Assembly (NCBI GenBank): GCA_035528375.1
Contig: DATKYS010000027.1
Coordinates: 1-5,250 of the forward strand
From: a bacterium
Lineage (GTDB): Bacteria > RBG-13-66-14
Reading direction: 5' to 3'
Length of the DNA stretch: 5,250 nt
Position 1 is the stretch's first letter. Each line of letters starts with the position of its first letter. Below the pieces are notes generated by a model. That model searched no databases and was not told the DNA's origin. It saw only the letters and a list, made by a program, of their open reading frames with translations. Of this stretch, positions 3,657 through 5,250 are shown piece after piece. The translations under genes were made by a program, and so were the position numbers.

Positions 3657-3699
3657 CCCTCTCCCTGGAGAGAGGCTCGCCTACGGGTTAGGGTGAGGG
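3657..3699. repeat. Imperfect palindromic intergenic repeat
   Basis: CCCTCTCCC (3657-3665) can pair with GGGTGAGGG (3691-3699) with one mismatch. A local hairpin around CTGG is nested inside (CCTCTC at 3658-3663 with GAGAGG at 3670-3675). CTAC (3681-3684), the complement of GTAG, lies within it. It is non-coding by position, between two minus-strand genes, and resembles dispersed small palindromic repeats. Its copy number cannot be seen here. Confidence 0.45.
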
Positions 3700-3712: not shown

Positions 3713-3740
3713 CGGGCGGGTGTGGACACCCGCCCCTACG
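3713..3740 (-). repeat. REP-like unit, left member of an inverted pair
   Basis: Read on the minus strand this is C, then GTAG (3739-3736), then a perfect 10-bp stem GGGCGGGTGT / ACACCCGCCC around CC. It is the inverted partner of 3760-3787, identical at 22 of 28 positions. All six differences lie in three stem base pairs and preserve pairing. GTAG directly at the foot of a palindrome is the hallmark of REP elements mobilised by RAYT (REP-associated tyrosine) transposases. Confidence 0.7.
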
Positions 3741-3759
3741 ATAATCCGCGAATCCAACC

Positions 3760-3787
3760 CGTAGGGGCGACCGTCCACGGTCGCCCG
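3760..3787 (+). repeat. REP-like unit, right member of an inverted pair
   Basis: This is C, then GTAG (3761-3764), then a perfect 10-bp stem GGGCGACCGT (3765-3774) / ACGGTCGCCC (3777-3786) around CC. It ends 4 bp from the stop codon of the large minus-strand gene, so its RNA form would sit at that transcript's 3' end and could stabilise or end it. No T-run follows on either strand. With its partner and the 19-bp spacer it forms a BIME-like (paired, inverted REP) element. Confidence 0.7.
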
Positions 3788-3791
3788 CGAA

Positions 3792-5250
3792 TTAACGCGC
3801 AATCACCACCCGCCGCGTAAGGGCGCCGGCATCGGCGGCGAGGCGGACGAGATACACGCCGGGTGGAAGCGTCGAGGTGTCGTAGGCGATTTCGTGGCGG
3901 CCGGGGGTGGTGGGGACGCTCACGGAGGACTCCACGAGCCGGCCCGAGAGGTCGTAGAGCGAGAGCTCTACGTTTTTCGTGCCCTCGGGCAGGTAGTAGC
4001 TCAAGGTCACCCGGTCAGCAGCGGGGCAGGGGAAAGGCGCGTAGAGGGTGAAGCGGCCGGCGTCCGATCCTTGCCAAGTGGCCTCCACGGGACCGAAGCG
4101 TCGTACGGAACCGTCGGGGAGCGTGGCTTCGAGGATGTAGAGGTGGGTTACGTTGGGCTCTGCGTCGCGGTCCAGGTAGCGGTAGATGGCATCGCCGGAT
4201 AGGTTGACTAGACTCTCTCCGTCACGCTCCAGACGCCAGGATGAGCCGGTCAGATCACCCTCCTCCCGCCAGGAGAGGAGGATGCCGTCGTCGTGATTTT
4301 CCGCGGACAAAACCGGCTCGTCGAAGCCTGATCCCTCCAGCTGGTGGACGTAACCGATGTCGTAATCCCAGGAATCTTGGCGGATGTGACCTACAGTTCG
4401 AATAAGGCCGTCCTCATCCACAGCGCCAAAAGGCCCCATCTGGTTAGACCCGACCATAACATCCGGAGTATACCACTGAGGTTCGCCGATCAAGTCGCCG
4501 TTTTCGTCGAACTCGAAGAAGCCGTAGCCCTCTGTTACATTCGCGAACAGAAAAATTCTCTCATCGGCTGTAATAAAGAAGTTGCGCTCGTCTATTTGGA
4601 CATCGTGTTCCATGAAAACCAACTTAGGTTCAACCAGCACATTACCATCCAGATCCAAAATTACATAACCGATGTAACTCTCGTAATCTTCATCATGACG
4701 GTAGGAAATGTGAACGTGATTATTAGAGTCAATACATATTGCGGGCTCGACATCATACGGTTCGTAAAGCAGGTAATCACTCTTAATCTGAGTAGGGTAC
4801 CCGACATCTATCAGGTCGGTCAGGTATGAGCCGTCATCGCCGTCAATCTTCCGGTATGCGACGGAATAATCATCTTCCGTCACACCTGTGTAGTATGTGT
4901 AAGCGACATGGACATTTCCATCGGAATCCACCGTCATTCCCTTATCCCAAGAAACGTAAGCGTACACGGGGTCGTCACAAATAACGTGGTTGGAGGCGAG
5001 AAGGTTGCCGGTGGAATCAACCTTCGCGTGCAGAGGTGACCGGTACCATTCCTCGCCGTTCCAGACGTAGCCTGTGTAGAGAAGATGAACGTTATCGTCA
5101 TCATCGCAGACGGCGTACATCGTCCAATCGGCGTCGGTGTCGAAGTCGAAGAGGTGCTTCGGATCGACCAGGTAGGAACCATCGGCGGTGTCTATCTGTG
5201 TGTACCACATCTGGAGGTTGCCGGCGGTATCCCTAAGCCAGAAGATATGC
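3792..5250 (-). CDS. Large secreted repeat protein with T9SS type A-like sorting domain (5' end outside window)
   Basis: The frame is open from the TAA at 3794-3792 to the right edge, so the N-terminus is missing. The ATG at 5210 is internal: the 13 codons before it (HIFWLRDTAGNLQ) continue the repeat pattern. Numbering from 5210, residues 1-300 hold five to six units of about 50-60 residues. Each begins after an Asp-rich turn with a strand of the form N-V-H-x-x-Y, for example DDDDNVHLLYT (36), DSDGNVHVAYT (95) and DSNNHVHISYR (161). This suggests a beta-propeller with possible calcium-binding turns. Residues 298-378 resemble a fibronectin type III domain. Residues 386-472 match the Por secretion/T9SS type A tail: LYAPFPCPAADRVTLSYYLP, VELSLYDLSGRLV, PGRHEIAYDTSTLPPGVYLVRL, then RRVVIAR. 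It is likely delivered to the cell surface or outside. Ligand or activity is unknown. The propeller part is much more AT-rich than the tail. Confidence 0.85.
   Translation of the reverse strand, partial: HIFWLRDTAGNLQMWYTQIDTADGSYLVDPKHLFDFDTDADWTMYAVCDDDDNVHLLYTGYVWNGEEWYRSPLHAKVDSTGNLLASNHVICDDPVYAYVSWDKGMTVDSDGNVHVAYTYYTGVTEDDYSVAYRKIDGDDGSYLTDLIDVGYPTQIKSDYLLYEPYDVEPAICIDSNNHVHISYRHDEDYESYIGYVILDLDGNVLVEPKLVFMEHDVQIDERNFFITADERIFLFANVTEGYGFFEFDENGDLIGEPQWYTPDVMVGSNQMGPFGAVDEDGLIRTVGHIRQDSWDYDIGYVHQLEGSGFDEPVLSAENHDDGILLSWREEGDLTGSSWRLERDGESLVNLSGDAIYRYLDRDAEPNVTHLYILEATLPDGSVRRFGPVEATWQGSDAGRFTLYAPFPCPAADRVTLSYYLPEGTKNVELSLYDLSGRLVESSVSVPTTPGRHEIAYDTSTLPPGVYLVRLAADAGALTRRVVIAR

Follow-up and report, generated by a model that had tools for sequence, protein, structure and literature searches.

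What kind of element is formed by two short GTAG-footed palindromes that face each other across a 21-nt linker, and is there any meaning in the fact that their stems differ by an exact exchange of three base pairs? The pair that raises this question lies at 3713-3787 of the window, by which we mean the whole of a 5,250-bp contig (C27) in a 2.63-Mb genome of 144 contigs (G000). The features that enter into the argument are the following (positions in the window).

3657-3699, no strand assigned: second abundant repeat (CCCTCTCCC...GGGTGAGGG), adjoining the 3' side of unit A; the same association is found at other REP sites
3713-3740, minus strand: REP unit, allele A (CGTAG GGGCGGGTG TCCA CACCCGCCC G); 66 identical copies of the 26-nt core in 1.27 Mb
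3740-3760, no strand assigned: linker of 21 nt between the two GTAG feet, GGGTTGGATTCGCGGATTATC when read from the B side; agrees with the asymmetric linker that is conserved among other dimers with GTAG inward
3760-3787, plus strand: REP unit, allele B (CGTAG GGGCGACCG TCCA CGGTCGCCC G); 37 identical copies of the 26-nt core in 1.27 Mb

The inverted pair in the window

Unit A, read as the reverse complement of 3713-3740, is CGTAGGGGCGGGTGTCCACACCCGCCCG, and its GTAG (3736-3739) is directed toward its partner; unit B, 3760-3787 read forward, is CGTAGGGGCGACCGTCCACGGTCGCCCG. Direct comparison of the two 28-nt units bears out what the initial annotation had said of their coordinates and strands, of identity at 22 of 28 positions, and of the exchange of mid-stem triplets (GGT..ACC in one unit, ACC..GGT in the other). 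The swapped-stem observation is confirmed. The 10-bp stems of that annotation are shortened by one pair: each unit is predicted to fold into a 9-bp stem with a TCCA loop, and the tenth (T-A) pair is dismissed because the resulting 2-nt loop is sterically impossible. (The predicted DNA minimum free energies of the two units are -12.0 and -12.2 kcal/mol, with z about -5.) In both units a short palindrome has GTAG standing unpaired at one of its feet, which is a mark of the GTAG REP superfamily, and an inverted REP pair with a conserved linker is the composite called BIME or REPIN. In the narrower sense of Bertels and Rainey, a REPIN is a pair of REPs that joins into one long hairpin; the window pair, taken as a whole, is predicted to form two separate hairpins. 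An Rfam search of the window gave no match. Generation of the swap by a single inversion of the hairpin core is rejected, in that it would convert the loop GTCCAC to GTGGAC, and the pair shows otherwise.

Copies, stem alleles and a transposase

As long as two copies were in view, the swap could be put down to chance, as the initial annotation allowed. That reservation is removed by searching the genome with the pattern GTAGGGGCG-N3-GTCCAC-N3-CGCCC, which has 165 matches in 2.63 Mb and 0 in the reversed control; the looser GTAGGGGCG..CGCCC has 327 (control 12). Detailed statistics refer to 80 stretches comprising 1.27 Mb, or 48% of the genome, the first 40 of which were picked partly for carrying REPs, so that no densities are derived from them. 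Over this 1.27 Mb a hairpin scan recovers 317 units, compared with 51 in reversed sequence. The stem alleles include GGGT (66 copies identical to A) and GACC (37 identical to B); CGACC with a TTYA loop, GGGT with a TTTA loop, GGACC and GGGG also occur, as do two forms with an extra small hairpin inside the loop. (The inserts that make up these mini-hairpins are GACGGCGCGCCG in the CGACC/TTYA type and of GTAGGACGAGTCC type in the GACC type.) The exact triplet swap is therefore not privileged: no fewer than five stem alleles coexist, and A and B are simply two among them.

Compensatory change in the stem had also been proposed, with triplets varying without complementarity named as the outcome that would speak against it. 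Among 36 distinct 26-nt units, chosen by us from 59 distinct ones under a hairpin criterion that tolerates one mismatch in nine, 95.1% of cells are paired (0 of 500 shuffles as high), both-sided changes are found at 6 of 9 stem pairs, and both-sided changed cells number 62 against a shuffle mean of 18 (again with no shuffle as high). The covariation score collapses when the partner is slid by one or more columns. Since the hairpin criterion and the choice of rows favor pairing, covariation is better supported by how many alternative complementary types there are. Six mid-stem pairs are variable while the loop is constantly TYYA throughout the alleles (T in 234, Y in 236, Y in 237 and A in 214 of 239). 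Of 304 units, 298 have C or T immediately before GTAG. A single unit in contig C38 (39494-39523; L148:19494-19523) is GTAG-tagged at both ends (GTAGGGGCGACCGTGGACGGTCGCCCCTAC) and can thus be read as a REP on either strand.

The proposal that such palindromes are of the REP/BIME type moved by RAYT transposases is supported by the copies, by covariation and by the presence of a RAYT with family units. The Y1_Tnp profile search of the genome gives one gene (L050:1429-1902), encoding a 157-aa HUH Y1 transposase that matches the NCBIfam REP-associated tyrosine transposase REP_Tyr_transpos (NF047646; 109 bits, cut-off 80) and the solved TnpArep structure PDB 4er8 (E 3e-8). Upstream, a family unit is placed 38 bp from this gene; on the downstream side a long-loop unit follows at 9 bp and a further family unit at 76 bp. 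The anticipated gene flanked by the same units is, in that sense, present, with family units adjoining it, but the flanking units are sibling alleles with TTCA loops (GGACCTTCAGGTCC and the long CGACC type) and not A or B. In the congener G001, alleles A and B do flank a RAYT (L244:1442-1900), which is 36% identical to that of G000. The L244 type was not found in G000, where the one gene given by the profile search is a different RAYT. Because A and B flank the L244 RAYT in G001, the window alleles are tied to a transposase not found in G000, although its loss is not certain, since contigs often break at REPs. The A/B-linked RAYT of G000 may have been lost, may be unassembled, or may have been replaced by the single remaining RAYT, and the mobilizer of A and B in this genome is uncertain. 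The sixteen nearest relatives of the G000 RAYT are 37-56% identical to it; its homologues, from Chloroflexi, Dehalococcoidia and other MAGs, mostly have GTAG hairpins of their own near the gene. A distinct GTAG hairpin class (GTAGGGCGGGG...CCCCGCC) adjoins other RAYTs of the genus (congener loci L245, L247 and L263) and is also represented in G000 (stretches L172, L183 and L206).

We conclude that the window pair is very probably a GTAG-tagged REP heterodimer, GTAGs inward, and belongs to a non-autonomous repeat family, several hundred copies strong, that RAYT spreads. Mobilization by RAYT, and recognition by way of GTAG and the loop, are what we infer from these associations. RAYT (TnpA-REP) tyrosine transposases would act on single-stranded DNA to spread the family. 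Of each unit they would read the GTAG foot, the GGG/CCC stem base and the loop TYYA; for the mid-stem, pairing alone would suffice, so that it would drift by compensatory change into alleles, and a dimer together with its linker would spread as one unit. In our reading, the use of unlike alleles would let each unit keep its own hairpin and not collapse with its partner into one long hairpin. It is very improbable that these are instead ordinary bidirectional intrinsic terminators, alike by convergence. A T-run does follow the stem in some units, and only 4 nt separate the 3' end of unit B from the stop codon (3792-3794) of a minus-strand gene for a T9SS-tail protein, a position that would suit a terminator. 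On the other hand, the T-run is confined to 51 of 304 units, leaving five of six without one, and on this ground a reading as terminators alone is rejected as the leading explanation. Terminators are not marked by a GTAG foot, a TYYA loop or association with a RAYT, and dozens of exact copies imply copying.

Pairing of unlike units

Published usage designates dimers with GTAG outside as HH and those with GTAG inside as TT (PMC3733652); the window pair is TT. The genome holds 36 TT pairs of 26-nt units with linkers of 15-35 nt, and 72 HH pairs whose spacer is exactly GC. Linkers of B-to-A TT dimers, to which that of the window belongs, are about 20-24 nt long and asymmetric, with the consensus GGG...GATTCGCG....AC; the end of the window linker, GCGGATTATC, recurs in two other GTAG-inward copies. 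The C-to-A linker is of 29 nt (GAGGTTGACGCGCGATTCACACC...). That TT linkers are conserved and asymmetric implies that TT dimers spread as units.

What stands out in this family is its unusually strict unlike pairing. Identical units in inverted orientation are absent from all 89 close pairs (49 HH and 40 TT) in the 48% of the genome that was analyzed. If two stems are counted as close when their first 8 bases differ at no more than one position, and the expectation is obtained by reassigning partners per copy, 4 close-stem HH pairs are observed where 16.1 are expected, and 0 TT pairs where 14.0 are expected (for HH and TT together, 4 as compared with about 30). At distances of 41-300 bp, like stems are avoided by inverted neighbors (5 close of 78) and not by direct-repeat neighbors (40 close of 92). 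Folding predictions put the cross duplex of the observed pairs at an average of about -18 to -20 kcal/mol, as against about -24 for two own hairpins; the cross duplex is the weaker in 81 of the 89 pairs and the stronger in 8. A like-with-like pair is predicted to form a single duplex of about -40 kcal/mol. If repeated allele combinations are reduced to one each, the probability of seeing no like type is 0.04 for HH (one quasi-homotypic type is in fact seen) and 0.07 for TT. The same search applied to another genome, G029, does yield inverted pairs of identical units (C27:142477+ with 142523- is one of them), which means that the rule is not universal and that the method and the assemblies are able to show such pairs.

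Is unlike pairing imposed, or merely inherited? Descent may explain much of it: a few ancestral dimers would have held different alleles, all present pairs would derive from them, and the stem swap would be without a role. Shared ancestry of the copies and the borderline per-type probabilities make this founder effect a serious rival, to which, as the sole cause, we assign a little less than an even chance; that GTAG-inward linkers are of few conserved types (B-A and C-A) is in accord with descent as units. The per-copy permutation speaks against it, however, as does the occurrence of HH pairs, 2 bp apart, in many allele combinations, none of them identical among the pairs listed from G000 and its congeners. 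The alternative is that like inverted pairs do arise but are eliminated: folded into long perfect hairpins or cruciforms, they would stall replication and suffer cleavage, and unlike alleles would be the survivors (a suggestion made in PMC3733652). This alternative is plausible, if on the doubtful side. It has on its side the predicted energies and the confinement of like-stem avoidance to inverted neighbors; tandem arrays of heterodimers would yield the same contrast between direct and inverted neighbors, G029 retains identical inverted pairs, and homodimers are described as common in some Pseudomonas in the same paper. As causes of the strict unlike pairing, founder effect and removal or avoidance of like pairs are roughly equally likely.

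Still more tentative, and in our estimation rather unlikely, is the reading of the mid-stem alleles as a self-avoidance code, in which dimers are formed or kept only if their units cannot cross-pair, flipped base pairs driving the stem alleles apart while the transposase-read GTAG, stem base and loop stay fixed. That the rule should be an artefact of assembly, with short-read MAGs breaking at perfect palindromes and so hiding like pairs, is improbable. Several contigs (C29, C98, C99 and C101) do end at or near REP pairs, but these contig-end pairs are heterotypic, GTAG-inward pairs with variable linkers of 20-30 nt obey the same rule, and identical inverted pairs were assembled in G029.

Relation to known REPs, and the genomic setting

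The family fits known descriptions of REPs (PMC3733652 and PMC8266576) as a further example, from an uncultivated lineage. The GTAG REP superfamily of Di Nocera et al. 2013 (PMC3733652) comprises 24 families, with subfamilies defined by alternative complementary stem residues, with HH and TT dimers, and with RAYT association; its heterodimer preference is stated there to have no obvious explanation, and protection from SbcCD is suggested. The present repeats are like these in the GTAG foot, 9-bp stem, short loop and complementary stem variants, and also in HH and TT dimers, heterodimer preference, intergenic location and RAYT association. They have the form GGG N6 TYYA N6 CCC, and may be identical with one of the 24 families. 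Searching the literature with the repeat sequence itself brought up only unrelated papers among the matches listed.

BIMEs of E. coli (Y, Z1 and Z2 REPs; GTAG-3) are comparable in their inverted pairs of unlike units (exclusively so, according to PMC3733652), GTAG-inward dimers and mosaic arrays. E. coli REPs, however, have a bulged stem and partners that differ in the loop, whereas here the stems are perfect and mid-stem pairs differ. REPINs of Pseudomonas fluorescens (PMC3116915) are likewise RAYT-linked, with dimer plus spacer as the apparent replicative unit, but their dimers join a single REP type to its own inverted copy and are predicted to form one long hairpin, in contrast to the unlike partners and separate predicted hairpins of this family. 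The Group 3 TnpA-REP/REPtrons of Stenotrophomonas and Marinomonas (PMC8266576) share the short perfect palindrome with GTAG. For a perfect-palindrome REP, Corneloup et al. 2021 (PMC8266576) show that cleavage depends critically on GTAG and on one base of the loop; GTAG and loop, critical for activity there, are conserved here, although the Group 3 loop is GCT and ours TYYA, the likeness being one of repeat features.

What is added is a richly multi-allelic REP family from an uncultivated lineage. One genome supplies 72 dimers with GTAG outward and 36 with GTAG inward, and congeners supply more, so that the family provides a clean data set bearing on the question posed in 2013, of why REP dimers so often pair unlike units. 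Because the differences among its alleles lie mainly in mid-stem bases that are paired, and the parts presumed to be read by the transposase are constant, cross-pairing and sequence recognition are experimentally separable.

REP midpoints fall inside ORFs in 64 of 304 cases, as compared with 86% of random points (a rough figure, from greedy ORF calls), and convergent gene pairs are somewhat more frequent at REP-bearing gaps (67 of 186) than among all neighboring ORF pairs (198 of 898). The window pair is flanked by the T9SS-tail gene and by a gene for an AlkZ-like protein, which share the minus strand; an SDR-family gene lies at a greater distance. AlkZ-like orthologues (90% identical in G001, 85% in G002) anchor the same gap in these two congeners. 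In G001 it contains a different GTAG hairpin (of GTAGGGCGGGG type) beside copies of a CCCTC repeat; in G002 it contains no GTAG hairpin, only CCCTC-type repeats. Occupancy of this gap by the A/B dimer thus varies among the genomes. Neither genome offers a clean empty site with exact boundaries, and insertion boundaries are unreadable in the comparison. At the end of the T9SS-tail gene, 36 bp (window 3792-3827; L270 2891-2926) are conserved in G001, which beyond them stops matching the window, as if the T9SS-tail gene had been lost or gained there. The second repeat of the window (3657-3699; CCCTCACCC...GGGAGAGGG) has about 148 copies in 1.27 Mb and often follows REP units immediately on their 3' side, behind a stretch like GTTTTTTTATAAGGTGG, so that larger mosaics result.
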